Shown piece by piece: positions 13,192 to 62,948 of a stretch of DNA of 64,000 nt. The notes beneath the pieces were generated by a model. It was not told the origin of the DNA, ran no database searches, and was given only the letters and a program-made list of their open reading frames with translations. This DNA is from Saccharomonospora amisosensis (GTDB lineage Bacteria > Actinomycetota > Actinomycetes > Mycobacteriales > Pseudonocardiaceae): assembly GCF_011761185.1 (NCBI RefSeq), contig NZ_JAAOYM010000003.1, forward strand, positions 186,001-250,000, read 5' to 3'. Each line of letters begins with the position of its first letter. Within the stretch, counting starts at the first letter, position 1. The position numbers and the translations under genes were made by a program.

Positions 13192-13205
13192 TTACTCATC
13201 AGTAA
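13192..13205. promoter_or_regulatory. TTACY-N4-RGTAR palindrome upstream of etfD
   Basis: TTACTCATCAGTAA, perfect 5-bp arms around 4 bp, 60 bp before the etfD start. The same pattern occurs at fadE5 (34216, 34241), SCP2/TetR (59871) and fabG4/fadA2 (62927). Confidence 0.7.
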
Positions 13206-13264
13206 GAAGCGTTAGGCTCCGCCAGACCCACCGCGAAGTCCCACCCGACCGAAAGGCCCCGAAC

Positions 13265-15562
13265 ATGGGTGCACTGCAGATCACGATGGGCGTGATCGGC
13301 GTTGCCGTCAGCGTTGTCGCCTGGTTCGTCTTCGTCCAAGGCGTACTACGCCAGGTACGGATCATCCGTCTCGGCCAGCCGGACTCCTCCCGTAACGGGC
13401 CGTTCTGGCCGCGACTGCGCACGCTGATCAAGGAGTTCGCCGCACACACGCGGATGAACAAGTTTCGCCATGTCGGGCCGTGGCACTGGCTGGTGATGTG
13501 GGGCTTCCTGCTCGGCTCGGCGGCGCTGTTCGAAGCCTACGGGGAGATCTTCGACCCGCACTTCGCGTGGCCGATCATCGGCCATTGGGGCCCGTGGCAG
13601 CTGCTGCTGGAACTGCTCGGCCTCGGCACTGTGCTCGGCGGCATCGCGCTGGCGGTGATTCGCCAGCTCAACCACCCGAGGCGGGCCGAAAGGCAGTCGC
13701 GGTTCGCGGGGTCGAACTTCGGGCAGGCCTACTTCGTCGAGGCAGTGGTGATCATCGAGGGGCTCGGCATCCTCGGCGTCAAGGCGTTCAAGATCTCCAG
13801 CGGTATCGAGGACCCCGCGCTGTGGAGCAGCTTCGTCACCCAGCCACTCGCCGCCCTGCTGCCGACCTCCACCGCGGCGGTCTCGGTGATGGCGCTGGTC
13901 AAACTGCTGTCCGGGATGATCTGGCTGTACGTTGTCGGCCGCACGCTCACCATGGGTGTCGCCTGGCACCGGTTCAGCGCGTTCTTCAACATCTACTTCA
14001 AGCGCGAGCCCGACGGCACAGTGGCCCTTGGCGCGCTGAAGCCCATGATGAGCGACGGCAAGCCGCTGGACTTCGAGGAGGCCGACCCCGAGAAGGACGT
14101 GTTCGGCGCTGGCAAGGTGGAGGACTTCACCTGGAAGGGCTGGCTGGACTTCTCCACGTGCACCGAGTGCGGTCGCTGCCAGTCACAGTGCCCCGCCTGG
14201 AACACCGGCAAGCCGCTCTCGCCCAAGCTGGTCATCACGCAGTTGCGCGACCACGCCTACGCCAAGGCGCCCTACCTGCTCGCGGGCGGCAAGAAGGACA
14301 TGACCGGCGACGAGGTCGGGCTCACCGGCGACAACCCCTACGCCGGGATCGACGTGCTCGCTGTCGCCGAGGCCGAGCGGCCGCTCGTCGGTGAGGCCGA
14401 CGCGGATGGAGTCATCGACCCCGAGGTGCTGTGGTCGTGCACCACCTGCGGGGCGTGCGTCGAGCAGTGCCCCGTGGACATCGAGCACGTCGACCACATC
14501 GTCGACATGCGCCGCTACCAGGTGATGATCGAGTCGAACTTCCCGACCGAACTAAACGGGATGTTCAAGAACCTGGAGAACAAGGGCAACCCCTGGGGGC
14601 AGAACGCCAAGGATCGGCTGGCGTGGACCGAGGACCTGGACTTCGAGGTGCCGGTCTTCGAAGGCGAGTTCGGCGACACCGAGTACGTGTTCTGGGTCGG
14701 CTGCGCGGGTGCTTTCGAGGACAGGGCGAAGAAGACCACCCGAGCCGTAGCCGAGCTGCTGCACGTCGCAGGCGTCAAGTACGTGGTGCTCGGCCCGGAG
14801 GAGACCTGCACGGGCGACCCGGCGAGGCGAGCTGGTAACGAGTTCGTGTTCCAGATGCTGGCCCAGCAGAACGTCGAGGTGCTGAACTCGGTGTTCGAGG
14901 ACGTGGAACCGACTCGCCGCAAGATAGTCGTGACGTGCGCGCACTGCTTCAACACGCTGGCGAACGAGTACCCCGAACTCGGCGGCGACTACGAGGTGGT
15001 GCACCACACGCAACTGCTGAACCGGCTGGTGCGGGAGAAGCGGCTGACGCCTGTCGCGCCTATCGCGGAGGACGTGACCTACCACGACCCGTGCTACCTC
15101 GGCAGGCACAACAAGGTCTACGAAGCCCCGAGGGAACTGGTGGGTGCCTCCGGGGCCAGCCTGCGCGAGATGCCCCGGCACGCCGAGCGGTCGATGTGCT
15201 GCGGCGCCGGTGGTGCGCGGATGTGGATGGAGGAGCGCATCGGCAAGCGGATCAACGTGGAGCGCGTTGACGAGGCGCTCGGCACCGCGCCCTCGAAGAT
15301 CGCCACCGGCTGCCCGTTCTGCCGGGTGATGCTCACCGACGGCGTGACCTCACGGCAGAACGACGGCAAGGCAGGCGAGAACGTCGAGGTGGTCGACGTC
15401 GCGCAACTGCTGCTATCGGCGGTGAAGCGCGGTGAGCAGGGCGTACCCGTGCCCGCGTCGGCCTCGACCTTCGGCGGCGAGGCGGAGGCCGACGGTCGCG
15501 CCGACGTGCCGACCGACCAGGCGCCATCCGGCACAGCCCAGACCGAGGAGGACAAGAGCTGA
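13265..15562 (+). CDS. etfD: EtfD-like membrane Fe-S oxidoreductase (ETF:menaquinone link)
   Basis: 765 aa. It resembles mycobacterial Rv0338c (EtfD), needed with EtfBA to reoxidise acyl-CoA dehydrogenases. The N-terminal third has about five to six membrane helices (NarI-like). Two 4Fe-4S motifs follow: CTECGRCQSQCP near residue 299 and CTTCGACVEQCP near 392. Two CCG domains then appear (CAHCFNTLANEY near 558 and MCCGAGGARMW near 642), as in heterodisulfide-reductase D-like subunits. The last 50 residues are low-complexity. ATG 13265 (MGALQITMG) was chosen over an open frame to 13154. The operator-like palindrome upstream links it to fadE5 and fadA2/fabG4 in this window. Function is inferred from family similarity. 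Confidence 0.85.
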   Translation: MGALQITMGVIGVAVSVVAWFVFVQGVLRQVRIIRLGQPDSSRNGPFWPRLRTLIKEFAAHTRMNKFRHVGPWHWLVMWGFLLGSAALFEAYGEIFDPHFAWPIIGHWGPWQLLLELLGLGTVLGGIALAVIRQLNHPRRAERQSRFAGSNFGQAYFVEAVVIIEGLGILGVKAFKISSGIEDPALWSSFVTQPLAALLPTSTAAVSVMALVKLLSGMIWLYVVGRTLTMGVAWHRFSAFFNIYFKREPDGTVALGALKPMMSDGKPLDFEEADPEKDVFGAGKVEDFTWKGWLDFSTCTECGRCQSQCPAWNTGKPLSPKLVITQLRDHAYAKAPYLLAGGKKDMTGDEVGLTGDNPYAGIDVLAVAEAERPLVGEADADGVIDPEVLWSCTTCGACVEQCPVDIEHVDHIVDMRRYQVMIESNFPTELNGMFKNLENKGNPWGQNAKDRLAWTEDLDFEVPVFEGEFGDTEYVFWVGCAGAFEDRAKKTTRAVAELLHVAGVKYVVLGPEETCTGDPARRAGNEFVFQMLAQQNVEVLNSVFEDVEPTRRKIVVTCAHCFNTLANEYPELGGDYEVVHHTQLLNRLVREKRLTPVAPIAEDVTYHDPCYLGRHNKVYEAPRELVGASGASLREMPRHAERSMCCGAGGARMWMEERIGKRINVERVDEALGTAPSKIATGCPFCRVMLTDGVTSRQNDGKAGENVEVVDVAQLLLSAVKRGEQGVPVPASASTFGGEAEADGRADVPTDQAPSGTAQTEEDKS

Positions 15563-15714
15563 CGACACGGACCCCCGCCAGGTGGGGGTTCCGGGAAGGC
15601 TTCTCGTGCTGAACACTCACGCAGCGAGGCGCGGTGGACAGGCGAGGTAGGCTGACCTCCTCGCTGCCACCGTCGCCCGCGAGGTCAAGGCACCAGCATG
15701 CGAGGCGGACAATC

Positions 15715-16428
15715 GTGGGCACCCGCGACGACGATTCCCAGCAGGCCGACGACCGGACCGTCGGCCGCTCTGGTGCGCGCTTCCCCAGCGCCAAGCAGCG
15801 GAGGCGGTTCGGCTCCGAGCCCGATCCGCCACTACCGCCTGCGGGCGAGCCGGGGTGGGACAGCACCGCCAAACCCAGCAGCGGCTCCAAGGCCCGCCGG
15901 TCAGGGGCTCGTTACCCACCCGCCGAACCGCTGGACGAATCGGAAGCCGACCAGCGAGGCAAACGTGCCGAGGTCGACCCGCAAATCGGGAAACCGCCCC
16001 CGACACCACCTCCGCAACACCCCTGGCAGCAACCGCCAAGAGCCGAACGGGTGCTCGCGGCTCCAGCCGATTCCGACGACAGCTCCGAACACCGGTTGCG
16101 CGTTCGCCCCTACGTCCTCACGAAGGGACGCACCCGGGCACGCGACGATCTAGGAGTGGAGACGCTGATCTCCACCATCGGCAACGCACCTTGGGACAGC
16201 GTGCAACTCAGCTCAGAGTATCTGGCCGTTCGCCGACTGTGCATTCAGCCCCGGTCTGTCGCGGAAGTCGCCGCGATCCTGTCGGTGCCGCTCGGCGTCG
16301 CCCGCGTGCTGCTGAGCGACCTCGCGGACGACGGATTCGTCCATGTGCACACCACCAAGTTCACCGCGTCGGGCCGACCCGACCAGATCCTCATGCAGCG
16401 AGTGCTCGAGGGCCTGCAGAAGCTTTGA
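15715..16428 (+). CDS. DUF742 (CvnC-like) protein with long disordered N-terminus
   Basis: About 237 aa from GTG 15715, which has a GAGGCGG ribosome site. The first 130 residues are Pro/Arg/Ser-rich and probably disordered. The C-terminal 110 residues are the DUF742 domain (RVRPYVLTKGRTRA through LSSEYLAVRRLC and SVAEVAAILSVPLGVARVLLSDLADDGFVHVH). DUF742 proteins are usually the third member of actinobacterial conservons, with a sensor kinase, a roadblock protein and a small GTPase. None of these is adjacent here, so it is an orphan. The domain resembles a winged helix. Confidence 0.8.
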   Translation: MGTRDDDSQQADDRTVGRSGARFPSAKQRRRFGSEPDPPLPPAGEPGWDSTAKPSSGSKARRSGARYPPAEPLDESEADQRGKRAEVDPQIGKPPPTPPPQHPWQQPPRAERVLAAPADSDDSSEHRLRVRPYVLTKGRTRARDDLGVETLISTIGNAPWDSVQLSSEYLAVRRLCIQPRSVAEVAAILSVPLGVARVLLSDLADDGFVHVHTTKFTASGRPDQILMQRVLEGLQKL

Positions 16429-16480
16429 GGCTCACCGGTACCGCGGTGCCCTTCGTGACGGCCGAGGTTGCCTCAAGTAT

Positions 16481-16495
16481 TGAATCAGTGGTTCA
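16481..16495. promoter_or_regulatory. Candidate TetR operator before the TetR/AidB-like operon
   Basis: TGAATCAGTGGTTCA, TGAA/TTCA arms around 7 bp, with partial extension (AAG...CTT). It ends 9 bp before the TetR start, a position compatible with autorepression. Confidence 0.35.
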
Positions 16496-16504
16496 CTTCT
16501 TGGT

Positions 16505-17110
16505 GTGGTGTACCGCCGCACTCCCGAGATCCAGGCCCGCCTCGACGCACAGCGGACCGCGATCCTCGACGCCGCCGTCGAACTGCTCGCAGAGCGCGGC
16601 TACGCCGGATGCTCGGTGTCCGCGGTGGCCTCGCGGGCAGGGGTGGCCACTGGCAGTGTCTACCGGCACTTCCCCGGCAAAGCGGAACTGGTGGCCGAAC
16701 TCTTCCAGCAGGTGGTGACCCGAGAGGTCGAGGCGGTACGGCGCGCCTCCGAGGAACCGAGCGAGCCCGCCGCTCGCGTGCTCGCCGTCGTGCGAACCTT
16801 CGCGCTACGAGCGCTGAAGGCACCACGGCTGGCGTACGCACTACTCGCCGAGCCCGTGGACGCCCCCGTCGAGCAACAGCGACTGGTGTTTCGACGCGCC
16901 TTCCGCGACATCATCGCCCGCTGCGTCCGCGCCGGAGTCCAAGCGGGCATGCTGCCACCTCAGGACGCCGCGATCACCGCGGCCGCGGTGGTCGGCGCCG
17001 CCGCCGAGGTACTCATCGGCCCACTCACCACCGGCGAGGCCGAAGCCGTCGGCGAACTGTCCACCTTCACCCTTCGCGCGCTAGGAGCAGGCGATGCCAC
17101 CCACCCATGA
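16505..17110 (+). CDS. TetR family regulator
   Basis: 201 aa with a typical TetR DNA-binding domain (RTAILDAAVELLAERGYAGCSVSAVASRAGVATGSVYRHFPGKAELV). The C-terminal ligand domain is Ala-rich. The gene starts at GTG 16505 with almost no leader after a palindrome, and its end overlaps the next gene by 17 bp. It most likely controls the acyl-CoA dehydrogenase/crotonase operon that it heads. Confidence 0.9.
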   Translation: MVYRRTPEIQARLDAQRTAILDAAVELLAERGYAGCSVSAVASRAGVATGSVYRHFPGKAELVAELFQQVVTREVEAVRRASEEPSEPAARVLAVVRTFALRALKAPRLAYALLAEPVDAPVEQQRLVFRRAFRDIIARCVRAGVQAGMLPPQDAAITAAAVVGAAAEVLIGPLTTGEAEAVGELSTFTLRALGAGDATHP

Positions 17111-18719
17111 AGTGACCAACCAGGTACCCCCGCTCGTCGACTACGACGTCGCCGACGACCCGGCCCTGCTCGAAGGTCTGCGCAGAGAGGGCGCGGACTG
17201 GGCTGAGCCCGAGGTCAGGGAGTTGGGACTGCGGGCGGGCAGTGAGCGCGCACAGGAATGGGGCAGGCTCGCCAACGAGCACCCGCCGAAGCTGCGCACT
17301 CACGACCGGGTCGGCAGGCGAGTCGACGAGGTCGAGTTCCACCCACACTGGCACGACCTGATGGAGGTCGCCGTCTCGCACGGGTTGCACGCGGCACCCT
17401 GGCAGCAGCAGCGGCAGGGCGCGCACGTCGCCCGCACCGCGAAGTTCTACGTGTGGAGCCAGGTTGAGGCCGGGCACACCTGCCCCATCTCCATGACCTA
17501 TTCCGCCGTACCGGCGCTGCGGCACAACCCAGCGCTCGCGCGGGTTTACGAGCCGCTGCTGGCGGCGAGCAGCTACGACTACGGGCTGCGCGAACCGAGC
17601 GGCAAACGCGGCCTCATCGCGGGCATGTCGATGACCGAGAAGCAGGGCGGCTCCGACGTGCGTGCCAACACCACGCGGGCACAGCCGTCCGCCGACGGCA
17701 GCTACGTGCTTACCGGGCACAAGTGGTTCACCTCGGCCCCGATGTCGGATGTGTTCCTCACGCTCGCGCAAGCCCCTGGCGGGTTGTCGTGCTTCCTGCT
17801 GCCCCGGGTACTGCCAGACGGCACCCGCAACCGCATCCACCTACAGCGGCTGAAGGACAAGTTGGGCAACCGGTCCAACGCCTCGGCCGAGATCGAGTAC
17901 GACGGCGCCGTCGGCTGGCTCGTCGGCGAGGAGGGTCGCGGGGTCCGCACGATTATCGAGATGGTCAACAACACCCGCCTGGACTGCATCACCGGCAGCG
18001 CCGCGGGCATGCGCTACGGCGCCGTGCGCGCGACCCAGCACGCCACGCATCGCAGCACGTTCGGCAAGCCGCTGGTGGAACAGCCGCTGATGACGAACGT
18101 GCTCGCAGACCTCGCCGTGGAGGCCGAGGCGGCGACCACCGTGGCCATGCGGCTCGCGGGCGCGAGCGAGCGCGCCATCGCGGGCGACGCGCAGGAGGCC
18201 GCGCTGCGCAGACTGGCGCTGCCGGTGATCAAGTACTGGGTGTGCAAGCGAGCGCCCGCGCACGCGGCGGAGGCGCTGGAATGCCTCGGCGGCAACGGCT
18301 ACGTGGAGGAGTCCGGTATGCCCCGGCTGTTCCGGGAGTCACCGCTTTCCTCGATCTGGGAGGGCTCGGGCAACGTGGCGGCGCTGGACGCGCTGCGCGC
18401 CATGGCCAGGGAGCCGGAATCGGTCGAGGCGTTCCTCGGCGAGGTCGAACTCGCGGCGGGGGCGGACTCCCGGCTCGATGCCGCCGTCACCGACGTGGGC
18501 AGGGAGTTGACCAACCTCGACGACATCGAGTACCGGGCGCGCAGGTTGGTGGAGCGACTCGCGTTGGTGTTGCAGGCATCGTTGCTGGTGCGCCACGGCG
18601 ACAAGGCGGTCGCGGACGCGTTCTGCGGCTCGCGGTTGGGCGGCGACTGGGGAGTCGCTTTCGGCACACTGCCCACCGGTACCGACACGCACGCTGTGGT
18701 GAGCAGGGTGCGCTGGTGA
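17094..18719 (+). CDS. AidB-like acyl-CoA dehydrogenase
   Basis: 541-aa flavoprotein of the acyl-CoA dehydrogenase superfamily, AidB branch: the signature MSMTEKQGGSDVRANTTRA is in the middle, and CLGGNGYVEESGMPRLFRESPLSSIWEGSGN lies in the last third. AidB of E. coli binds DNA in the alkylation response, and related enzymes oxidise branched acyl-CoAs. The downstream crotonase and upstream TetR argue for acyl-CoA catabolism here rather than DNA protection. The start ATG has a TAGGAGCAGG ribosome site. Confidence 0.88.
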   Translation: MPPTHEVTNQVPPLVDYDVADDPALLEGLRREGADWAEPEVRELGLRAGSERAQEWGRLANEHPPKLRTHDRVGRRVDEVEFHPHWHDLMEVAVSHGLHAAPWQQQRQGAHVARTAKFYVWSQVEAGHTCPISMTYSAVPALRHNPALARVYEPLLAASSYDYGLREPSGKRGLIAGMSMTEKQGGSDVRANTTRAQPSADGSYVLTGHKWFTSAPMSDVFLTLAQAPGGLSCFLLPRVLPDGTRNRIHLQRLKDKLGNRSNASAEIEYDGAVGWLVGEEGRGVRTIIEMVNNTRLDCITGSAAGMRYGAVRATQHATHRSTFGKPLVEQPLMTNVLADLAVEAEAATTVAMRLAGASERAIAGDAQEAALRRLALPVIKYWVCKRAPAHAAEALECLGGNGYVEESGMPRLFRESPLSSIWEGSGNVAALDALRAMAREPESVEAFLGEVELAAGADSRLDAAVTDVGRELTNLDDIEYRARRLVERLALVLQASLLVRHGDKAVADAFCGSRLGGDWGVAFGTLPTGTDTHAVVSRVRW

Positions 18720-19564
18720 GCGCCCCACTGCGCACGGAGACCGCCGACGGGGTCCGCTCGATCGTGCTCAGCAGGCCCGACGAGTACAACACCATCACCC
18801 CGCAGTTGCGGGACGCGTTGAGCGCCGCGATCGACGAGGCCGACGCCGACCCGGAGGTGCGGGTGATGCTGCTGCGCGCCGAAGGGCCCGCGTTCTGCGC
18901 CGGGTACGGGCTGGGCTGGTCGACCGAGCTGCAGGCACAGGAGCAGAGCAACGACCGCGGCTGGGACTCGGTGGCCGACATGCGCCTGCTGTCCACGTTC
19001 GTCGACACCTACCTGAAGCTGTGGTACGCGGCCAAACCCACCATCGCCGCCGTGCACGGGTGGTGCATCGCGGGCGGCACCGACATGGTGCTGTGCGCCG
19101 ACATCGTGGTGGCGGCCGACAACGCGGTGTTCGGCTACCCGCCCTCGCGGGTGTGGGGAACACCGACCACGGCCATGTGGGTCTACCGGCTGGGTTTCGA
19201 GCGGGCTAAGCGTTACCTGCTCACCGGCGACGAGATCCCGGCCCGCACGGCGGCCGACATCGGCCTTGTGCTGGAGGCCGTACCGGAGGAGAAGTTACTC
19301 GACCACGCGTTCGGGCTCGCCAAGCGCATGGCCATGGTGCCCGCCAACCAACTGCAGATGCTCAAACTGCTGTGCAACCAAACGGCCGAGAACATGGGAC
19401 TGTCGTCCTCGCGCACGCTGGGCACGCTGTTCGACGGCGTCGCCCGGCACACCCAGGAGGGGCGCGACTTCGTCCGGCGAGTGAGCGAGGCCGGCGTCCG
19501 GCAGGCGGTGCGTGAGCGCGACGACCCCTTCGGCGACTACGGCTCGCGACCGCGCGCTCAGTAG
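18716..19564 (+). CDS. Enoyl-CoA hydratase/isomerase family protein (crotonase)
   Basis: 282 aa from GTG 18716, which overlaps the preceding stop by 4 bp. Crotonase-fold features are present: RPDEYNTITPQLRDAL at the start, the oxyanion-hole segment EGPAFCAGYGL, and AAVHGWCIAGGTDMVLCADIVVAADNAVFG. It presumably hydrates the product of the adjacent dehydrogenase. Its last 7 bp overlap the convergent CAP-protein gene. The substrate is unknown; nothing indicates a frame disruption. Confidence 0.88.
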   Translation: MSAPLRTETADGVRSIVLSRPDEYNTITPQLRDALSAAIDEADADPEVRVMLLRAEGPAFCAGYGLGWSTELQAQEQSNDRGWDSVADMRLLSTFVDTYLKLWYAAKPTIAAVHGWCIAGGTDMVLCADIVVAADNAVFGYPPSRVWGTPTTAMWVYRLGFERAKRYLLTGDEIPARTAADIGLVLEAVPEEKLLDHAFGLAKRMAMVPANQLQMLKLLCNQTAENMGLSSSRTLGTLFDGVARHTQEGRDFVRRVSEAGVRQAVRERDDPFGDYGSRPRAQ

Positions 19565-20289: not shown

Positions 20290-20363
20290 GAACGTGAAAG
20301 CTACCACCAAAGCGTGGGTTATTGAACCGTGATTCTTTCCCTACCAGCCAGGGGGGAGGGCGG

Positions 20364-20945: not shown

Positions 20946-20947
20946 CA

Positions 20948-20965
20948 GAACACCCTAGTGTGTTC
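20948..20965. promoter_or_regulatory. Palindrome at the MpaB-dcd junction
   Basis: GAACACCCTAGTGTGTTC: arms GAACAC/GTGTTC and a palindromic CTAG centre, with one mismatched pair. It ends 2 bp before the dcd start codon and overlaps the stop of the preceding gene. The GAAC/GTTC spacing (10 bp) is wrong for LexA. It could be an operator or a hairpin controlling dcd translation. Confidence 0.4.
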
Positions 20966-22199: not shown

Positions 22200-22227
22200 G
22201 CGTCTCACCTGCCCGTATCCCAAGTTC

Positions 22228-22388: not shown

Positions 22389-22395
22389 CTCAGTC

Positions 22396-33365: not shown

Positions 33366-34163
33366 ATGGCGCACAGCATCGAAAGGGGCAGAACCGGCCC
33401 CGGCACGGCGGGCGGCCGCGTGTTGACCGTCGCGGCACTGGACTCGGTTCCCGTTTATCGGGAAGGACTCAACGCGGTGGTGAGCCGCACCCCGGGGCTA
33501 CGTTGGGTCGGACACGCGGCAACGCAGCACGCATCCATGCAACTGTGCGAACAACTGCATCCGAATATCGTCGCTGTGGACTCCGGCCTCGACCCGCAGG
33601 GCCACCTGATCCGGCTGCTCAGCGACGGACACCCGATGATGATCATCGTCGTGCTGCTGCGGCAGGCACATGTCGGCGCGACCTTTATCTCCGCGATGCT
33701 ATCGGCGGGAGCACACGGGGTCGTGCCGAGAGACGCCGACCCTCGGCGCCTCGGTGAGGCGCTGCGGAAGGCGTTCGTCGACAGGCGCTACACCGACCCT
33801 TCGCTCGCACCGTTGCTTGCCCGGCAGCGGCACACGACTGGCGGCGACGGCAGGGTGGGTGCCGACACGCACCGGCCGAGGATGCCGTTGTCCCGGCGTG
33901 AATACCAGGTGCTGCAACTGGTCGCGGAGGGACTGGAGAACGCGGCCATCGCGAAGACGCTCTTCCTGTCCGTGGAAACCGTGCGCACGCACGTGAAGAG
34001 CATCTTGCGCAAGCTCTCGGCGCGGGACCGTACACATGCGGTGAGCAAGGCGTTCCGCTCCGGCATTCTCGTCGCGCGTGCCGAGGGGTCACCGCCCGGC
34101 GAGGGAGCACCTCCCGGCGAGGGCGAGGCGCCACCCGCGGCGGTGGGTAACACGATCGCCTGA
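33366..34163 (+). CDS. LuxR/NarL-type regulator with degenerate receiver domain
   Basis: 265 aa from ATG 33366 with a GGGAGAG ribosome site. The C-terminal LuxR helix-turn-helix is strong: LSRREYQVLQLVAEGLENAAIAKTLFLSVETVRTHVKSILRKL. The N-terminal domain resembles a receiver (VYREGLNAVVSRTPGLRWVG; IVAVDSGLD with a candidate phospho-Asp), but the usual acidic pair before the VREGL-like helix reads ALDSV, so metal-dependent phosphorylation may be lost. No histidine kinase is nearby. The C-terminal tail has a PPGEGAPPGEGE repeat. Confidence 0.87.
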   Translation: MAHSIERGRTGPGTAGGRVLTVAALDSVPVYREGLNAVVSRTPGLRWVGHAATQHASMQLCEQLHPNIVAVDSGLDPQGHLIRLLSDGHPMMIIVVLLRQAHVGATFISAMLSAGAHGVVPRDADPRRLGEALRKAFVDRRYTDPSLAPLLARQRHTTGGDGRVGADTHRPRMPLSRREYQVLQLVAEGLENAAIAKTLFLSVETVRTHVKSILRKLSARDRTHAVSKAFRSGILVARAEGSPPGEGAPPGEGEAPPAAVGNTIA

Positions 34164-34205
34164 CTCACCCATGGCGATCGCTTCGTCACAAACCGGCCCG
34201 TCACC

Positions 34206-34254
34206 TTGCCGCCAGTTACTAGCAGGTAATATGCTGTATGTTACCGGCCAGTAG
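34206..34254 (+). promoter_or_regulatory. fadE5 promoter with two TTACY-N4-RGTAR operators
   Basis: Predicted TTGCCG (34206-34211), 18-bp spacer, TATGCT (34230-34235). Operator A TTACTAGCAGGTAA (34216-34229) fills the spacer, and operator B TTACCGGCCAGTAG (34241-34254) lies just downstream of the -10. Occupancy of both would occlude RNA polymerase. The same TATGCT -10 is seen on the fabG4 side of the fadA2 promoter. Confidence 0.7.
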
Positions 34255-34295
34255 GGCAGTGATGTCCGCCGAACTACCCCGTACGGAGTGACGAC

Positions 34296-36140
34296 ATGGG
34301 CCACTACAAGAGCAACGTCCGAGACCTGGAGTTCAACCTCTTCGAGGTGCTCGGCGTGCAGGAGCGTCTCGGCAAGGGCGTGCTGGCGGAGTCGGACGCC
34401 GACACCGCGCGCGGCGTGCTGACCGAGCTCAACAACCTGGCCGTCGGCCCGCTGGCCGAGTCGTTCGTCGACGCCGACCGCAACCCACCGGTCTACGACC
34501 CGAAGACCTTCTCCGCGACCCTGCCGGAGTCGTTCAAGAAGAGCTACCAGGCGCTGTGGGACGGCGAGTGGTGGCGGATCGGCCTCACCAACGAGCTCGG
34601 CGGCTTCGGCCTGCCTCCCACCGTGCAGTGGGCCGCCTCCGAGCTGATCCTTGGCGCGAACCCGGCGCTGTTCATGTACATGGCGGGCCCGAACTTCGCG
34701 ATGATCCTCGACAAGAACGGCACCGAGGAGCAGAAGCGCTGGGCCCGCATCATGATCGAGCGCGCGTGGGGCGCGACGATGGTGCTGACCGAGCCGGACG
34801 CGGGCTCCGATGTCGGCGCGGGCCGCACCAAGGCGGTGTTGCAGGAGGACGGTTCCTGGCACCTCGACGGCGTCAAGCGGTTCATCACCTCCGCCGACCA
34901 GGACATGACCGAGAACATCATGCACCTGGCGCTCGCCCGCCCCGAGGGTCCCGGCATCGAGCCGAAGCCCGGCACCAAGGGGCTGTCGCTGTTCCTGGTG
35001 CCGAAGTTCCACTTCGACACCGAGACCGGCGAACTCGGTGAGCGCAACGGCGCCTTCGTCACCAACGTCGAGCACAAGATGGGCCTGAAGGTCTCCACCA
35101 CCTGCGAGCTGACCTTCGGCCAGCACGGAACGCCCGCTAAGGGCTGGCTGCTGGGCGAGGTGCATGACGGCATCGCACAGATGTTCCAGGTGATCGAGTA
35201 CGCCAGGATGATGGTCGGTACCAAGGCCATCGCGACGCTGTCCACCGGCTACCTCAACGCGCTGGAGTACGCCAAGGAGCGGGTACAGGGCGCCGACCTC
35301 ACGCAGATGCTGGACAAGACCGCGCCTCGCGTGACGATCACCCACCACCCCGATGTGCGCCGGTCGCTGATGACGCAGAAGGCCTACGCGGAAGGCCTGC
35401 GTGCGGTGTACCTCTACACCGCGTCGTTGCAGGACCAGATCTGGACCGGTGAGGGTGACGAGGAGTCGCAGGAGCTGGCGGAGCGGGTCAACGACCTGCT
35501 ACTGCCCATCGTCAAGGGCGTCGGCTCCGAGCGCGCCACCGAACAACTCGTGCAGTCACTGCAGACGCTCGGCGGCTCCGGGTTCCTGCAGGACTACCCG
35601 ATCGAGCAGTACATCCGCGACTCCAAGATCGACTCGCTGTACGAGGGCACCACGGCCATCCAGTCGATGGACTTCTTCTTCCGCAAGATCGTCCGCGACA
35701 AGGGAAAGGCCCTCACCTACCTTGCCGGTGAGATCACGAAGTTCATCGAGTCCGAGGCGGGTAACGGCAGGCTGAAGAACGAGCGCGCGTTGCTCAAGCA
35801 GGCACTCGACGACGTGCAGGGCATGCTCGGCGCGATGATCGGCTACCTGACCGCGTCGCAGGACGACCCGAAGAGTGTCTACAAGGTCGGGCAGCACACC
35901 GTGAGGCTGCTCATGTCCGCGGGTGATCTGCTCGTCGGGTGGCAACTGCTGCGGCAGGCCGAGGTGGCGATGACCAAGCTCGACGCCGACCCCGCCGCGA
36001 AGGATGTGCCGTTCTACCAGGGCAAGGTGGCCGTGGCGACGTTCTTCGCCAAGAACGTGCTGCCCGAACTCACCGCCCGCAGGGCCATCGTCGAGGCCGC
36101 CGACAACGACCTGATGGAGATCGACGAAGCGGCGTTCTGA
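34296..36140 (+). CDS. fadE5: FadE5-type acyl-CoA dehydrogenase
   Basis: 614-aa flavoprotein that introduces the alpha-beta double bond in acyl-CoAs. It looks like an orthologue of M. tuberculosis FadE5: the N-terminus [20 protein letters not shown] and the stretches [69 protein letters not shown] and [20 protein letters not shown] are characteristic; the C-terminus is [10 protein letters not shown]. It is an extended ACAD with an extra C-terminal helical domain. In mycobacteria fadE5 lies beside fadA2-fabG4-htdX; here those genes are about 25 kb away but share the same operator. Electrons pass through ETF to EtfD, also encoded here. Confidence 0.95.
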
Positions 36141-53286: not shown

Positions 53287-53302
53287 GCTGACACCTCACA
53301 CA

Positions 53303-56340: not shown

Positions 56341-57368
56341 TGGCCGCACCCGTCAAGACCACCGTGGACAACCCAACCTCGACCGTCCGTAACCTGACCA
56401 TCGGCAAGGCACTCAACCTCGGGTTGCGTGCCGCGATGGAGGCCGACGACAAGGTCATCGTCATGGGAGAGGACGTCGGCAAGCTCGGCGGTGTCTTCCG
56501 CATCACCGACGGATTGCAGAAGGACTTCGGTGAACAGCGGGTGCTGGACACGCCGCTGGCCGAGTCCGGGATCATCGGCACAGCGGTGGGGCTCGCCGTT
56601 CGCGGCTTCCGCCCGGTGTGCGAGATCCAGTTCGAGGGGTTCATCTTCCCCGGCTTCGACCAGATCTCCAGCCAGTTGGCGAAACTGCACTACCGCACGC
56701 AGGGCGAGATCAAGGTGCCCGTGGTGATCCGGGTGCCGTTCGGCGGCGGTATCGGCGCGGTCGAGCACCACTCGGAGTCGCCGGAGTCGCTGTTCGCGCA
56801 CATCGCGGGGCTTCGCGTGGTCTCGTGTTCCAACGCCGTTGACGCCTACTGGATGATCCAGCAGGCCATCCGGTGCGACGACCCGGTGCTGCTGTTCGAG
56901 CCGAAACGGCTCTACCACTCGGCGGCTGCCAAGGCCGACGTCGACACGGCGGCCAGCCCGGATCCGCTGTTCGCCTCCCGCGTCGTTCGCGAAGGCTCGG
57001 CCGCCACGTTGGTGGCCTACGGGCCTTCGGTGAAGGTGTGCCTTGATGCCGCGGCGGCGGCACGGGAGGAGGGCACCTCACTCGAGGTCATCGATCTGCG
57101 CACGCTGTCGCCGCTGGACCTCGAGCCGGTGTTCGAGTCCGTGCGCCGAACCGGACGGCTGATCACCGTCTCGGAAGCGCAACCGGAGTCGTCCATCACC
57201 TCCGAGATCGCCGCCAGGGTGCAGCAGGAGTGCTTCTTCTCGCTGGAGGCCCCCGTGCTGCGCGTCACGGGTTTCGACACGCCGTATCCGCCTGCGAAGC
57301 TGGAGGAGCATTTCCTTCCCGATCTCGATCGGGTGCTGCACGCCGTCGACCGAGCGCTGGCCTGGTGA
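56337..57368 (+). CDS. bkdB: Branched-chain 2-oxoacid dehydrogenase E1 beta
   Basis: 343 aa. Overlaps the E1 alpha stop (GTGATG; GTG 56337 or ATG 56340 may be the start). Typical E1 beta sequence: NLGLRAAMEADDKVIVMGEDVGKLGGVFRITDGLQ, TPLAESGIIGTAVGLAVRGFRPVCEIQF and RVPFGGGIGAVEHHSESPESLF. Forms the alpha2-beta2 decarboxylase and supplies the transketolase-type partner domain. Confidence 0.87.
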   Translation: MMAAPVKTTVDNPTSTVRNLTIGKALNLGLRAAMEADDKVIVMGEDVGKLGGVFRITDGLQKDFGEQRVLDTPLAESGIIGTAVGLAVRGFRPVCEIQFEGFIFPGFDQISSQLAKLHYRTQGEIKVPVVIRVPFGGGIGAVEHHSESPESLFAHIAGLRVVSCSNAVDAYWMIQQAIRCDDPVLLFEPKRLYHSAAAKADVDTAASPDPLFASRVVREGSAATLVAYGPSVKVCLDAAAAAREEGTSLEVIDLRTLSPLDLEPVFESVRRTGRLITVSEAQPESSITSEIAARVQQECFFSLEAPVLRVTGFDTPYPPAKLEEHFLPDLDRVLHAVDRALAW

Positions 57369-57379
57369 GGGGGAGGAAC

Positions 57380-58729
57380 ATGCCTGAGTACAAGCAGTTC
57401 CCACTCGCCGACACCGCCGAAGGGCTCACCGAGGCCGAGATCCTGAACTGGCGTGTGAAGCCGGGCGACGAGGTGCGGGTCAACCAGATCGTCGTGGAGA
57501 TCGAGACGGCCAAGGCGGCGGTGGAGTTGCCGATCCCGTGGTCGGGCGTAGTCACCGAGTTGCTCGTCGAACCGGGACAGACGGTGGAGGTCGGCACGCC
57601 GATCATGACCGTCGATGTCGATCCCGGCGGCGGTTCGCCCGGCGCCCACCCGGCGAACAACGGCTCGGCGAAGGTCGAATCCGTCGAAGCCATCGCGCCC
57701 GCCGAGCCTGCTTCATCTGCTCCACCCGCCGACGAGGAGATGAAGCCGCTGGTCGGCTACGGCTCCAAGGCGGTGTCGGCGAAGCGCCGCCCTCGCAAGG
57801 CGGCTGCCTCGCAGGGTGCGGACGTCGCCACCGGACGGCTGGCTGACGCGACCGTCACGTCGGCGAACACACATGTGCCACTGGCCAAGCCGCCGGTGCG
57901 CAAGCTCGCCAAGGAGTTGGGCGTCGACCTGCGTACCGTCCCCGGTTCCGCCGATGGCGGCGTCATCACGAGGGAGGACGTGCGAAGGGCAGCACAACCG
58001 CTGACCACGCCCGCCGCCGCACCAGCGGGGGCTCGGGAACGCCGGGTGCCGATCAGGGGTGTCCGCAAGGCCACCGCGCAGGCGATGGTGGACAGCGCGT
58101 TCTCAGCCCCGCACGTGACGGAGTTCCTCACCGTCGACGTCACCCCGATGATGACGCTGCGGGAGAAGCTGAAGGCCACACCCGAGTTCTCCGCCGTCAA
58201 GCTGACCCCGCTGGCCTTCGCGGCTAAGGCGGTCTGCTTGGCGGTGCGGCGAACCCCGGACGTCAACGCCGTGTGGGACGAGCAGGCAGGCGAGATCGTC
58301 TACAAGGAATACGTCCACCTCGGCATCGCGGCGGCGACTCCACGGGGCCTGGTGGTGCCCAAGGTGCGCGACGCCGACGCGATGTCACTGGCCGAGCTCG
58401 CGGCCGCGATCGAGCGGCTGACCAGCACCGCGAAGGAGGGCAAGACGCCACCGGAGGACATGCTCGGCGGCACGTTCACCATCACCAATGTGGGCGTGTT
58501 CGGTGTGGACACCGGTACGCCGATCATCAACCCTGGTGAGTCGGCGATCCTCGCGCTGGGTGCGATCAAGGACATGCCGTGGGTGGTCGAAGGTGAGCTG
58601 GCCGTGCGCAAGGTGCTGCAACTGTCGCTGAGCTTCGACCACAGGGTGGTGGACGGCCAGCAGGGTTCACAGTTCCTCGCCGATGTCGGGGCGCTGCTGT
58701 CCGACCCGGCCACGGCTATCACGTACTGA
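57380..58729 (+). CDS. bkdC: 2-Oxoacid dehydrogenase E2 (acyltransferase)
   Basis: 449 aa from ATG 57380 (GGGGAGGAAC ribosome site). One lipoyl domain with Lys in EIETAKAAVELP (about residue 40), an Ala/Pro linker, a peripheral-subunit-binding domain (PPVRKLAKELGVDLRTVPGS, about 175-210) and the catalytic domain ending SLSFDHRVVDGQQG (His and Asp of HRxxDG). It transfers the acyl group to CoA. No E3 gene follows, so lipoamide dehydrogenase must come from elsewhere. A strong hairpin ends the operon. Confidence 0.9.
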   Translation: MPEYKQFPLADTAEGLTEAEILNWRVKPGDEVRVNQIVVEIETAKAAVELPIPWSGVVTELLVEPGQTVEVGTPIMTVDVDPGGGSPGAHPANNGSAKVESVEAIAPAEPASSAPPADEEMKPLVGYGSKAVSAKRRPRKAAASQGADVATGRLADATVTSANTHVPLAKPPVRKLAKELGVDLRTVPGSADGGVITREDVRRAAQPLTTPAAAPAGARERRVPIRGVRKATAQAMVDSAFSAPHVTEFLTVDVTPMMTLREKLKATPEFSAVKLTPLAFAAKAVCLAVRRTPDVNAVWDEQAGEIVYKEYVHLGIAAATPRGLVVPKVRDADAMSLAELAAAIERLTSTAKEGKTPPEDMLGGTFTITNVGVFGVDTGTPIINPGESAILALGAIKDMPWVVEGELAVRKVLQLSLSFDHRVVDGQQGSQFLADVGALLSDPATAITY

Positions 58730-58732
58730 CAC

Positions 58733-58780
58733 CCGCCGCGACCCGCCGTCACGATCACCAGGTGCGGCGGGTCGCGGTGG
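58733..58780 (+). terminator. Terminator of the bkd operon
   Basis: 16-bp stem (58733-58748 with 58765-58780, core CCGCGACCCGCCG, one G-U pair), loop 16 nt, starting 3 bp after the E2 stop. No T-run. Confidence 0.82.
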
Positions 58781-58825
58781 TAGCACCGCGGGAGCAAATT
58801 CCGGCACGCGCGCGTTGGAAAGGGT

Positions 58826-59284
58826 ATGGCTGTCGTGTTCCTGCTCTACGTGGTTGCCGAGGTGGCCGCCGTCTGGGCGGTCGCGTCCGCCATCGGCCTG
58901 CTGCCCACACTGGGCCTGCTGCTGGCAGGCGCCATCGTCGGCTCGTGGCTCGCGCGCCGCGAGGGAGGCAAGGCAGCGCGGGCGTTCATGGCCACCGCCA
59001 GGTCGGGTCGCTCGCCGCACGCCGAGGTCACCGACGGCATGCTGGTCGGGCTCGGCGGCCTGCTGATCCTGCTGCCAGGCTTCGTGACCGACTTCGCCGG
59101 GTTGCTCTTGCTGCTTCCGCCGACCCGTGGCTTCGCGCGGCGCGCTTGGCTACGGCGAATCGAGCGCAAGGTGCCGGTCTCACACCGGCACTACGGCGGG
59201 GTGATCGTCGTGGACAGTGAGGTGGTGCGGGAACCAGGCGAGCCGCAGGCGCAGCCGAGGCGGCCGGTGATTGACTCCGAGTGA
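58826..59284 (+). CDS. FxsA family membrane protein
   Basis: 152 aa. The FxsA domain has four hydrophobic stretches: FLLYVVAEVAAVWAVASAIGL, TLGLLLAGAIVGSWLARREG, MLVGLGGLLILLPGFVTDFAGLLLLLPPTRG and the basic tail. The GGLLILLPGFVTDFAG motif is diagnostic. E. coli FxsA eases exclusion of phage T7 by F plasmid; chromosomal function is unknown. Start at ATG 58826 preceded by GGAAAGG. Confidence 0.9.
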   Translation: MAVVFLLYVVAEVAAVWAVASAIGLLPTLGLLLAGAIVGSWLARREGGKAARAFMATARSGRSPHAEVTDGMLVGLGGLLILLPGFVTDFAGLLLLLPPTRGFARRAWLRRIERKVPVSHRHYGGVIVVDSEVVREPGEPQAQPRRPVIDSE

Positions 59285-59299
59285 ACCCGGCGGCAGGGG

Positions 59300-59860
59300 T
59301 CAGGCCGGTTTTGGCAGGTCGAAGTAGCCGACCAGCCGCAGAGCGGGGGTGTAGTCACCCCTCACCTTGATCTTGCCGGTGATGAACATGGCTGGCACGC
59401 CGACGTTGCCGGTGGCCATGCGAAGGAAATCGTCGGCTTCCACCGTGATCGTCGTGTCGACGTGCTCGTACGGCCGCGTGCTCCAGCTGCAACGGCCGTC
59501 CTCGATGAGCGTGTAGAAGCGCTCGTAGTCGCCTTCACCGTCGGGAAAGCGCCACGCCACGACGAGGGTGACGTACTTGACTCGCTCCGGAACCAGCTGC
59601 TCCGACATCCGGCGGAACACCTCGCGCAACAACACCGGACGCAGCCTCGGATGCTCGCAGGCAACGCGCAACTGTTGCTTCGAGGTCCTGCCGACCACCC
59701 TGGCGAGCACTTCGGTGGACAGCGCGCTCAACGAGGCACCCGCACCGCTGTCCTCCAGCATGTGCAGGGTGTCGAGCAGCCGTAAGAACTGCTCAGGTGT
59801 CAGGGCGCCGACGTCGAGTCCGTCGGCGAACTCGTCCAGCGCGCCTCCGAATTCGGACAC
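59300..59860 (-). CDS. SCP2 sterol/lipid-binding domain protein
   Basis: 186 aa from GTG 59860. An N-terminal helical half (EFADGLDVGALTPEQFLRLLDTLHML) precedes a C-terminal SCP2 domain (WRFPDGEGDYERFYTLIEDGRCSWSTRPYEHVDTTITVEADDFLRMATGNVGVPAMFITGKIKVRGDYTPALRL). Binds sterol or acyl-CoA lipids in the cytoplasm. The TTACY palindrome lies 11 bp upstream of its start, so it probably shares regulation with the lipid genes. Start choice is uncertain; the frame is open to 59968. Confidence 0.85.
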   Translation of the reverse strand: MSEFGGALDEFADGLDVGALTPEQFLRLLDTLHMLEDSGAGASLSALSTEVLARVVGRTSKQQLRVACEHPRLRPVLLREVFRRMSEQLVPERVKYVTLVVAWRFPDGEGDYERFYTLIEDGRCSWSTRPYEHVDTTITVEADDFLRMATGNVGVPAMFITGKIKVRGDYTPALRLVGYFDLPKPA

Positions 59861-59870
59861 CGGCGTAAGG

Positions 59871-59884
59871 TTACCCAGCGGTAG
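59871..59884. promoter_or_regulatory. TTACY-N4-RGTAR palindrome between SCP2 and TetR genes
   Basis: TTACCCAGCGGTAG, fitting the consensus of the etfD, fadE5 and fadA2/fabG4 sites. It lies between the divergent SCP2 and TetR genes, suggesting autoregulation by the TetR at 59953. Confidence 0.55.
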
Positions 59885-59952
59885 ACAGCGCGGCAATCCG
59901 CGGGCGACACAACACCGACGGGTAGCGTTTGCGCTGTAGGAGGAGGTATCAG

Positions 59953-60639
59953 GTGGCGCAGGACGCACAGCGACCGGCGGAACGAGCCAAACGATTGCCG
60001 AGGGCGGTCCGCGAGAAGCAGATCCTTGACGCCGCGGTGCGGGTGTTCTCGCTCCATGGCTACCACTCGGCTTCGATGGACGAGATCTCCGATGTCGCGG
60101 GCGTGTCCAAGCCGATGATCTACAGCTATCTTGGCGCGAAGGAGGACCTGTTCCTGCACTGCATCCGCCGCGAGGCCAACCGGATGTTGGAAGCCGTGCA
60201 GGCGGGGATAAGGCCCGACGTTCCCCCCGACATGCAACTCTGGCACGGGCTGCGTGCCTTCTACGGATTCGTCGCCTCGCACCGTGAGTCGTGGGTGGTG
60301 CTGCATCGGCACGCGATCACCGTCGGCGGGCCGTTCGCCGACGAGATCACCGACCTGCGCGGCAAGGCGATCAAGCTGGTCGGCGGGCTGGTGGTCAGCG
60401 CGGGTGCCCGCAAGGGCCTTGCCGAACAGGTGGAGTTCTCCGGCGAAGGCCTCGCCGCCGCACTGGTCGGCGCAGCGGAGTCACTCGCGGACTGGTGGCT
60501 CGACCACACCGACGTTCCCGACGGCGTGCTCGCCTCGTGGCTGATGAACCTGGCTTGGCTCGGCTTCAACGACCTCGTCGAGGGCCAGCTGTGGCGGCCC
60601 AGGGAACACGACGGCGAGCACGGCGCCGACCAGGCGTGA
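59953..60639 (+). CDS. TetR family regulator, candidate regulator of the fatty-acid genes
   Basis: 228 aa from GTG 59953 with the strong ribosome site TAGGAGGAGG. TetR domain VREKQILDAAVRVFSLHGYHSASMDEISDVAGVSKPMIYSYLGAKEDLF (about residues 20-68), then a large helical ligand domain. It lies next to htdX-fabG4-fadA2, as Rv0238 lies near htdX in M. tuberculosis. Autoregulation and control of the TTACY-N4-RGTAR sites are inferred from position; the ligand may be an acyl-CoA. Confidence 0.85.
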   Translation: MAQDAQRPAERAKRLPRAVREKQILDAAVRVFSLHGYHSASMDEISDVAGVSKPMIYSYLGAKEDLFLHCIRREANRMLEAVQAGIRPDVPPDMQLWHGLRAFYGFVASHRESWVVLHRHAITVGGPFADEITDLRGKAIKLVGGLVVSAGARKGLAEQVEFSGEGLAAALVGAAESLADWWLDHTDVPDGVLASWLMNLAWLGFNDLVEGQLWRPREHDGEHGADQA

Positions 60640-60655
60640 CGGCGCGCCGAAGCTG

Positions 60656-61540
60656 CTAAGACGGCGAATCTACCCGCACCACGGTCCCCTCCAGGTGCGG
60701 CTTCGGTTTGCGCGCGTGCCACAGTTCGAAGGCCCAGCCCTGCTCGGTGGACCACGAGGTGAATGCCACCTTGGCGGGCAGCAACACCGGCAGCTTGAAC
60801 CGCACGTCCACCGTGTAGGCCTGCGGCAGCCTGCCCTCGAACGCCGCGAGGCAGCGAGCCTTGGTCCACATCCCGTGCGCGATGGCCGAGCGGAAGCCGA
60901 ACAACCGCGCGGTCAGCGAGTACAGGTGGATGGGGTTGCGGTCCCCTGACACCTCGGCGTAGCGCCGCCCGATGTCGGAAGGCACTTGCCACACCGCGCT
61001 CGCGGACGGCTTGGCCAGGCCCGTCGACCGTCGCCGCTCACCCTGCTCGCCGCCAGAACCGCCGCCACGACGCAGGTAGGTGCTCACGTCGGTCCACACG
61101 GCCGAGCCCGCGTCACCCTCGCCGGTTACCAGCTCACTCACCATGTCGAACTGGGTGCCCTTCTCGTGCGGGCGCAGGTTCTCGGCCCGTACCCGCAGGG
61201 TGAACTCCTCACCGACCCGAACCGGGCGCCGCTGGGTGATCCGGTTTGCCACGTGCACCATCCCCAGCAACGGGAACGGGAACTCCGGCTCGGTCATCAG
61301 CGCGACCTGCAACGGGAAGGCGAGCACGTGCGGGTAGGTGGCGGGCAGTTCGTCGCCGAGCCGGAAGCCGCACACCCGGTTGTACTCGGCGACGTGCGCG
61401 GGGTCGGCCACGACACCGGGGCGCATGTACTCCGAATCCGGCAGTACCTCGGCGGCCCCACGCTTGCGCAGTCCGCCGAGCACGGCCTTCGGGTACAGCG
61501 TTGACAGGCTCGGCGCTGCCGACAGTTCCTTGACGGTCAT
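60656..61540 (-). CDS. htdX: HtdX-type (R)-hydroxyacyl thioester dehydratase (MaoC-like)
   Basis: 294-aa double hotdog protein. The hydratase-2 motif in the C-terminal half is YAEVSGDRNPIHLYSLTARLFGF (catalytic Asp and His) followed by AIAHGMWTKARCLA. It reversibly dehydrates (3R)-hydroxyacyl-CoA/ACP. It starts immediately before fabG4's stop region (fabG4 ends 1 bp upstream), so the two are one operon, as in mycobacteria. Confidence 0.93.
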   Translation of the reverse strand: MTVKELSAAPSLSTLYPKAVLGGLRKRGAAEVLPDSEYMRPGVVADPAHVAEYNRVCGFRLGDELPATYPHVLAFPLQVALMTEPEFPFPLLGMVHVANRITQRRPVRVGEEFTLRVRAENLRPHEKGTQFDMVSELVTGEGDAGSAVWTDVSTYLRRGGGSGGEQGERRRSTGLAKPSASAVWQVPSDIGRRYAEVSGDRNPIHLYSLTARLFGFRSAIAHGMWTKARCLAAFEGRLPQAYTVDVRFKLPVLLPAKVAFTSWSTEQGWAFELWHARKPKPHLEGTVVRVDSPS

Positions 61541-61541
61541 C

Positions 61542-62885
61542 TCAGGCTCCCAGGAACGCCTGGCCGCACACGCGGACGAAGTTGCCGTTGACGGCGGACG
61601 AGGCGGGGTTGGCGTACCAGGCGATGGTCTCTGCCACGTCGACGGGAAGCCCGCCCTGCGCGAGGCTGGAAAGCCGCCTGCCGAACTCCCTGATCACCAC
61701 TGGAACCGCGGCTGTCATCTTCGTTTCGATGAACCCTGGCGCCACGGCGTTGATCGTGCCCCCGTGCTCGGCCAGCCTCGGTGCGGCCTCGTTCACCATG
61801 CCGATGACACCTGCCTTGCTGGTGGCGTAGTTGGTCTGGCCGACGTTCCCCGCGATTCCCGCGATGGACGACACGCCTATGATCCGACCGTTATCCCGCA
61901 ACACCCGGCCGGACAGCAGCCGGTCGTTGATCTCCAACGCCGCGCCGAGGTTGACGCTCAACACCGAGTCCCACGCGCTGTCACTGAGGTTGCCGAGCGT
62001 CTTGTCCCTGGTGATACCCGCGTTGTGCACGACAACGTCGACGCCGCCGTGGCGCTGTGTCAGGTAGCCCGCGAGCCGCTCCGGCGCGTCGGCCGCGGTG
62101 ATGTCGAGTTGCAGCGCCGAACCACCGATCCGGTTGGCCACCTCGGACAGCTCCCCACCCTGTGCCGGAATGTCAAGGGCGACCACGTGGGCGCCGTCGC
62201 GGGCCAGCACCTCGGCGATGGCGGCGCCGATGCCCCTCGACGCGCCGGTGACCACGGCGACCCTGTCGCGCAGCGGCTGCTCCCAGCTCTGCGGCGGCTG
62301 GGCCGTGGTGGCCCCCGCCGTGCCGACGCGGATGACCTGGCCGTCAACGAACGCCGACTTGGCCGAAAGCAGGAACCGTATGGTCGATTCAGCGGCCTCC
62401 TCCGCGCCCTGTGCCACGTACACCAGCTGTGCGGTGGCTCCGCGCTTGAGCTCCTTGCCGACGGAGCGGGTGAACCCCTCCAGCGCGCGCTGGGCGATGC
62501 GCTCGCGGCCCTCGACGCGTTCCGGCGGCGTGCCGACGACCACGACGCGGCCGCAACTCGCGGCCTTGCGTATGACGGGGTGGTAGAAGCGATACAGCTC
62601 ACGCAACTGGGATGGTTCGGTGACGCCGGTGGCGTCGAAGACGAGCGCGCCGTAGCGGGTGTCGTCCTCGGGCGTGTGCAGTACCTCGATGCCTGCCGCG
62701 CCGAGCTGCGCGGTGAGCACCTTTTCCATTCGCCCACCCGGTGCGGCACCCACAAGTGCGGGACCATCGAGGGCAGGCTGCCCGGGGCGGTAGCGTCGCA
62801 GCGTCGGCGGGTTCGGCAGGCCGAGCTTCGGCACGAGGAACTTGCCGAGCGGTGTCTTGGTGAACTGCTGATACTTGTCAGCCAT
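61542..62885 (-). CDS. fabG4: FabG4-type 3-oxoacyl reductase (high-molecular-weight FabG)
   Basis: 447 aa from ATG 62885 (GGGAGGC ribosome site). The N-terminal half is a degenerate flavodoxin-like domain. The C-terminal SDR domain has the cofactor site VTGASRGIGAAIA, NAGI, the Ser of GVSSIAGIAGN and the YATSK catalytic pair. Reduces 3-oxoacyl-CoA, NADH-linked in mycobacterial FabG4. Divergent from fadA2; an operator with two predicted promoters sits between. First gene of the htdX operon. Confidence 0.94.
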   Translation of the reverse strand: MADKYQQFTKTPLGKFLVPKLGLPNPPTLRRYRPGQPALDGPALVGAAPGGRMEKVLTAQLGAAGIEVLHTPEDDTRYGALVFDATGVTEPSQLRELYRFYHPVIRKAASCGRVVVVGTPPERVEGRERIAQRALEGFTRSVGKELKRGATAQLVYVAQGAEEAAESTIRFLLSAKSAFVDGQVIRVGTAGATTAQPPQSWEQPLRDRVAVVTGASRGIGAAIAEVLARDGAHVVALDIPAQGGELSEVANRIGGSALQLDITAADAPERLAGYLTQRHGGVDVVVHNAGITRDKTLGNLSDSAWDSVLSVNLGAALEINDRLLSGRVLRDNGRIIGVSSIAGIAGNVGQTNYATSKAGVIGMVNEAAPRLAEHGGTINAVAPGFIETKMTAAVPVVIREFGRRLSSLAQGGLPVDVAETIAWYANPASSAVNGNFVRVCGQAFLGA

Positions 62886-62918
62886 CGGATGCCTCCCGTC
62901 GGCGGTGGTGCGGTGGCC

Positions 62919-62948
62919 AGCATAACTTACTGGCCAGTAGGTTACACT
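62919..62948. promoter_or_regulatory. Divergent fabG4/fadA2 promoter with TTACY-N4-RGTAR operator
   Basis: Operator core TTACTGGCCAGTAG (62927-62940) extends to AACTTACTGGCCAGTAGGTT (62924-62943), 9 of 10 arm pairs matching. Predicted -10 boxes flank it: TATGCT on the minus strand (62924-62919) toward fabG4, and TACACT on the plus strand (62943-62948) toward fadA2. One repressor could silence both. Confidence 0.75.

Follow-up and report, generated by a model that had tools for sequence, protein, structure and literature searches.

The stretch of DNA analysed here (the window) comprises 64 kb of the Saccharomonospora amisosensis genome (contig NZ_JAAOYM010000003.1, C3:186001-250000; genome of 5.53 Mb in three contigs) and carries five copies of a palindromic site in front of genes for fatty-acid breakdown, namely etfD, fadE5, an SCP2 gene with an adjoining tetR gene, and the fabG4 and fadA2 pair. 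The names etfD and fadA2 are those used in an earlier annotation of the window (the initial annotation); the etfD protein matched no specific NCBIfam model above cut-off. The features are:

13192..13205, + strand: palindromic site TTACTCATCAGTAA, from the pattern search; ends 59 bp before the etfD ATG
13265..15562, + strand: etfD, membrane iron-sulphur (Fe-S) oxidoreductase with CCG and Fer4 domains (Pfam)
34216..34229, + strand: distal fadE5 site TTACTAGCAGGTAA, from the pattern search
34230..34235, + strand: -10-like TATGCT between both fadE5 sites, found by eye in the window letters
34241..34254, + strand: proximal fadE5 site TTACCGGCCAGTAG, from the pattern search
34296..36140, + strand: fadE5, acyl-coenzyme A (acyl-CoA) dehydrogenase (Pfam)
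59300..59860, - strand: SCP2, sterol-carrier-like protein (Pfam PF02036); GTG at 59860 chosen as start, the longest open reading frame reaching 59968
59855-59868: remnant of a second site, right half only, shifted by 16 bp (window letters)
59871..59884, + strand: site TTACCCAGCGGTAG between SCP2 and tetR, from the pattern search; ends 68 bp before the tetR start
59953..60639, + strand: TetR regulator, probable FdmR (Rv0238) ortholog (TetR_N, TetR_C_46, 3f1b, gene order)
60656..61540, - strand: htdX-like MaoC dehydratase (Pfam)
61542..62885, - strand: fabG4-like short-chain dehydrogenase (Pfam); ATG at 62885 chosen as start
62927..62940, + strand: site TTACTGGCCAGTAG between fabG4 and fadA2, from the pattern search; extended AAC-site-GTT at 62924-62943
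62983..64000, + strand: fadA2, thiolase (translation); continues beyond the window end

The initial annotation had joined the five sites into one fatty-acid regulon, and their positions were confirmed by a pattern search of both strands of the window, in which the exact pattern TTACYNNNNRGTAR gave 7 strand matches at these 5 places and no others. The same pattern averaged 0.03 matches in 100 shuffled windows (largest count 1); with the outer base freed, the motif came top of 60 palindromes with permuted arm letters (5 places, against 2 for the runner-up and a mean of 0.32). The motif is better written as YTACYNNNNRGTAR with the core TAC-N6-GTA, and the occurrence of CTAC...GTAG forms at equivalent places in 80 named loci (1.58 Mb) makes the motif broader than TTACYNNNNRGTAR. 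Exact sites number 175 in these loci, with 155 lying at tetR or fadA2, and the reversed pattern matches once. Genome-wide scans with IUPAC (International Union of Pure and Applied Chemistry) patterns returned 17 forward and 14 reverse matches of TTACYNNNNRGTAR (the reversed pattern giving 5 of each) and 39 places for YTACYNNNNRGTAR, against 17 for its reversed control and about 4 expected under a first-order Markov sequence of window composition.

Conservation was checked in related genomes, where the sites are kept and the idea of a shared element was not refuted. A fadE5 match was found in 59 of 60 relatives and, counting one copy per genome, the promoter site is present in 57 of these 59 genomes (30/30 first-fetched loci and 27/29 remaining genomes), the two misses being G048, where only 2 bp precede the gene in the available sequence, and G058, with one mismatch. 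Beyond the order, it was found in 4/4 same-class genomes having the gene and in 2/10 genomes from other classes. The fadE5 site pair, spaced by 24 or 25 bp, recurs in 28/30 loci; the proximal site is kept as TACCGG..AGTA in most pair loci, and all 28 (28/28) have a TANNNT hexamer after the distal site. Among second fadE5 copies of relatives, G012b has the site while G042b and G055b lack it, and the second copy in four f8 genomes (0/4 with the site) provides a useful negative control. The etfD site is present in 41/50 loci of relatives (28/30 and 13/20), a tally that covers neither second copies nor partial matches nor certain genomes (G003, G005, G032, G043 and G056 among them), although G056 does carry the site. 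The initial annotation had also placed the fadE5 and fadA2 sites on predicted -10 boxes, which is plausible by eye (TATGCT at fadE5; TACACT at 62943-62948, touching the fadA2 site), although a sigma-70 consensus scan, with other promoter types outside its reach, made no promoter call within 34000-34500 or 59600-63200. A reading of the sites as core promoter elements, or as palindromes arisen by chance, with no dedicated regulator could account for the 25 of 39 genomic places not at identified lipid genes, for the 17 places of the reversed control and for the flanks that coincide with -10-like hexamers; this explanation is nevertheless extremely improbable, given that the same promoters are conserved over many genera, that the spacings are constant (as above at fadE5; 16 bp at tetR) and that the second f8 copies of fadE5 have no site. 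The sites keep fixed promoter positions in dozens of genera, and the view that the motif is real and conserved at genes of fatty-acid breakdown is supported.

Elsewhere in the genome, the motif also precedes etfB (L007), a fused 3-hydroxyacyl-CoA dehydrogenase gene (L004), an enoyl-CoA hydratase gene (L006), a crotonyl-CoA carboxylase/reductase gene (L005; TIGR01751), acyl-CoA dehydrogenase genes (L016, L107), a short-chain dehydrogenase gene (L013) and fadD-like genes (L019, L111). Together with the five window sites, such genes of fatty-acid or acyl-CoA metabolism account for 14/39 places, as counted from a scan of part of the flanking genes. The proposal that all sites precede lipid genes thus holds within the window but not genome-wide. 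An equal frequency before unrelated genes, which would speak against the regulon, is borne out in part: the majority of the places (25) lie away from identified lipid genes, although the reversed control itself has 17 places. One further site (L017:1501; C1:3946089) lies 86 bp before a transketolase-domain gene, which we take to be possibly aceE, divergent from a DUF3052 gene.

The regulator put forward by the initial annotation, the TetR at 59953, is probably the ortholog of FdmR (Rv0238), judged by its domains (TetR_N, 9.8e-15; TetR_C_46, 2.1e-18), its closest solved chain (3f1b, E 3e-37) and an FdmR-like gene order with htdX, fabG4 and fadA2, compared with what we take to be the order in M. 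tuberculosis. Its best matches are in Prauserella, Saccharomonospora and Amycolatopsis, and identity is 72-84% for the majority of the 80 loci retained; f8 orthologs are 42-45% identical, and at one f8 locus (L269) tetR (44% identity), htdX, fadA2 and fadE5 all lie within 12 kb. The exact site precedes tetR in 61/80 named loci and 24/32 relatives, paired in 10 of the 80 loci and then always 16 bp apart. Before fadA2, it is present in 76/76 named loci with a FadA2 match; the remaining four (L024, L025, L026, L099) are without such a match, L026 and L099 ending too soon. Seven of the 19 loci lacking the tetR site are also without an SCP2 match. Both are missing in five Saccharomonospora loci (L024-L027, L030), as if the operator had been lost together with the divergent SCP2 gene. 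In Actinokineospora, a further palindrome, of CTACTA form and conserved among the loci, lies several kb beyond fadA2, beside small unidentified genes (L084:16985, L085:17253, L087:18111, L088:17199, L094:10833, L100:17744).

FdmR was counted as present where the best match reached at least 42% identity (36/60 genomes; the other 24 reach at most 39%). A fadA2 match was found in 42/60 relatives; in 41 of these (the partial G012 being left out) the fadA2 site accompanies FdmR in 35/35 genomes, against 3/6 without it (Fisher p 0.002, relatedness ignored). G006 is without a full-length close FdmR, yet its fadA2 has the flanked site; a short stretch at G006:C9:10324-10497 aligns with FdmR residues 165-222, in the C-terminal part (53% identity, with one stop codon), and may be either the remains of a decayed gene or the result of an assembly gap. 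Excerpts of the literature equate FdmR with Rv0238 and call it a repressor of fatty-acid degradation that responds to long-chain acyl-CoA (PMC12403877), which the sites before tetR and between fabG4 and fadA2 fit. As the sole regulator, however, the TetR is doubtful, because the fadE5 sites persist in 21/23 genomes with fadE5 but without close FdmR (36/36 with FdmR; Fisher p 0.15). Sites at both fadE5 and etfD occur throughout the order, including genomes without close FdmR, and the crotonyl-CoA reductase site recurs in two such f3 genomes.

A second candidate regulator is FasR (Rv3208), whose ortholog in this genome lies beyond the window (L307:2385-3242 against FasR chain 6o6p, E 1.6e-62; G000:C1:4382115) and which was found in 58/60 genomes. 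The core precedes fasR in 30/30 loci fetched, all from Pseudonocardiaceae (19 exact, 11 with one outer mismatch); the site of the present genome has one outer mismatch. In three genomes checked, fasR adjoins a DUF3107 gene, a neighbour that we take to be typical of FasR. The recognition stretches of FdmR and FasR, GVSKPMIY and GVSKPVLY, are nearly alike. According to the excerpts compared, FasR is an acyl-CoA-sensing activator of fas-acpS, acyl-CoAs with chains of at least C16 disrupt its binding, and its published crystal oligonucleotide can be parsed as TAC-N6-GTA followed by AAC-N6-GTA (PMC7382501); a significant palindromic motif is reported for Rv3208 in the part consulted of PMC4482099. 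Among the matches listed in a literature search, none dealt with fadE5 or etfD being controlled by FasR, a weak negative with subscription papers mostly uncovered; the only listed match pairing FasR with either gene, PMC11080919, concerns hepatocyte vesicles.

The site occurs in two forms. Matches to the AAC...GTT flanks average 5.4 of six bases at fadA2, 2.9 at tetR, 2.1 at fasR, 1.3 at fadE5 and 0.9 at etfD (fadA2 versus fasR, fadE5 and etfD: Mann-Whitney p 7e-33, related rows not being independent), and the fadE5 and etfD sites have flanks and inner bases unlike those of fadA2. With at most one mismatch, the extended form AACYTACNNNNNNGTARGTT has five places in the present genome (none for its reversed control), before fadA2, a fadD-like ligase gene (best NCBIfam match FadD2, under cut-off), an acyl-CoA dehydrogenase gene, a beta-propeller gene with a ceramidase gene, and a fatty-acid desaturase gene with a TetR gene. 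The desaturase gene (L308:1816-3542; C1:936315 onward) is followed by a TetR gene with a TetR_C_46 domain and is preceded, at 34 bp, by a near-extended site with a TAC-N6-GTA core. At L113:2501-5014 (C1:4195389), an exact extended site directly before the beta-propeller and ceramidase genes suggests that lipid hydrolysis may belong to the regulon. At L320:700-9462 (about C1:1163700-1172460), a beta-oxidation cluster surrounds a gene with two TetR_N domains, presumably Mce3R-like; it encodes two acyl-CoA dehydrogenases, one of them with a near-extended site in front of its gene, as well as a thiolase, a flavin monooxygenase and a fused enoyl-CoA hydratase/3-hydroxyacyl-CoA dehydrogenase.

The reading favoured here, at a probability of roughly 0.55, is that two sister TetR regulators with nearly the same recognition helix, FdmR and FasR, read the palindrome as an operator of fatty-acid breakdown. 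FdmR would bind the site that lies between SCP2 and tetR and the one that separates fabG4 from fadA2. FasR would bind before fasR and also, either by itself or jointly with FdmR, at etfD and at both fadE5 sites. With the fadE5 sites occupied, a dimer on each side of the TANNNT -10 element would exclude RNA polymerase until long-chain acyl-CoA released the dimers, such that FadE5 dehydrogenation, EtfD electron transfer and FadA2 thiolysis rise together. In this scheme we infer the pairing of protein with site, the repression and the acyl-CoA signal.

The initial annotation had assigned all five sites to one regulator. Shared control is possible, since FdmR has been credited with regulating fadE5 in mycobacteria (PMC9262360, as excerpted); a single reader is questioned by fadE5 and etfD sites that occur without close FdmR and without the flanks, and by the core at fasR. 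It is unlikely that FdmR alone reads the five sites in this genome, with FasR or another TetR reading the fadE5 sites of FdmR-less genomes. The near identity of the two recognition stretches and the frequent site before this tetR would suit such an arrangement, but the fadE5 site is kept independently of FdmR, its flanks and inner bases and those of the etfD site differ from those at fadA2, and fasR itself has the core in every Pseudonocardiaceae locus fetched.

Several points weigh against joint reading by FdmR and FasR. FdmR has been called a key regulator of fadE5 (PMC9262360), and one regulator would likewise explain the sites here; M. tuberculosis FasR is an activator, not a repressor. 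Outside Pseudonocardiaceae, the core precedes fasR in just 2/10 loci (L216, with one mismatch, and L222), which counts against simple order-wide self-control by FasR; no FasR match was obtained in G045 (E 1e-28 search) or in G012 (74% complete), both of which have fadE5 sites. The AAC/GTT flanks at fadA2 may be the -10 boxes of divergent promoters, the tetR site of the window matches just 1/6 flank bases, and the 25/39 places mentioned above lie in coding sequence or before genes that are mixed, unidentified or unrelated (the last including EspG, a LuxR response regulator and PhoD).

The rarity of fasR self-sites outside Pseudonocardiaceae also favours a third regulator that reads the order-wide fadE5 and etfD sites, with FdmR and FasR merely sharing a similar core. 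TetR genes are numerous in the genomes (G000 alone gave 105 first-look candidates), and the TetR beside the desaturase (L308) and the tandem TetR beside the acyl-CoA dehydrogenase (L107/L320) are also near such sites. This is nonetheless quite improbable: among the TetR proteins examined here, FasR is the only one found in nearly every genome with the core before its own gene. Candidates for such a reader were rejected on their own grounds, TetR_L111 (encoded 119 bp beyond a site and close to a fadD) being found in just 25/60 genomes at E 1e-20 and the 33%-identical paralog G000:C1:1331436 having no site before it. In the TetR tree, L015, L011, L005 and L111 of the present genome fell on very long branches and their placements were not used. 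A tentative and less likely extension of the joint reading by FdmR and FasR is evolutionary. FasR, known in mycobacteria for activating fatty-acid synthase I, would ancestrally have controlled its own gene and fatty-acid breakdown (fadE5, etfD) across Actinomycetes, and FdmR, as the younger sister, would have acquired some of its operators; one operator grammar would then link the making and the burning of fat.

The mycobacterial regulon of FdmR (Rv0238) was reportedly described by Dong et al. in 2021 in PNAS. From the excerpts compared, the present system resembles it in having a TetR gene beside htdX and fadA2, and perhaps in the control of fadE5 and other fatty-acid catabolism genes, the published signal being long-chain acyl-CoA; it differs in its Pseudonocardiaceae host and in the position of fadE5 and etfD, 26-47 kb from tetR, and etfD is unmentioned as an FdmR target in these excerpts. 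With FasR it shares TAC-N6-GTA-like cores, as in the published FasR DNA, and an order-wide ortholog with the same core here before fasR; unlike the published role of FasR in synthesis and activation, the role proposed here from sequence would be in breakdown (PMC7382501, as excerpted). Two further mycobacterial TetR repressors, MadR (Rv0472c) and MftR (Rv0691c), likewise answer long-chain acyl-CoAs according to the excerpts, with differing published motifs (TCTGTG-N7-GT and T-N2-GGCA-N5-TGCC-N2-A, respectively), for which reason MadR was rejected as a reader. Because the window TetR is most likely FdmR, already published as an acyl-CoA-responsive repressor of fatty-acid breakdown in mycobacteria, the regulon is largely of a known kind, in a new family and with a testable second regulator.

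A Streptomyces study of 2017 stated, in the part consulted, that the regulatory signals and genes of fatty-acid catabolism in these bacteria were undescribed (PMC5539140). A fadE5 operator present in 57/59 genomes of the order and in 4/4 same-class genomes beyond it, with two named candidate readers, renders this question testable. It also serves as a warning that a shared TetR core should not be credited to the nearest TetR gene. EtfD is described, in excerpts on M. smegmatis, as carrying electrons from FadE5 and the electron-transfer flavoprotein (ETF) to the respiratory chain (PMC13083937); if the proposed reading is true, FadE5 and EtfD would come under one switch.

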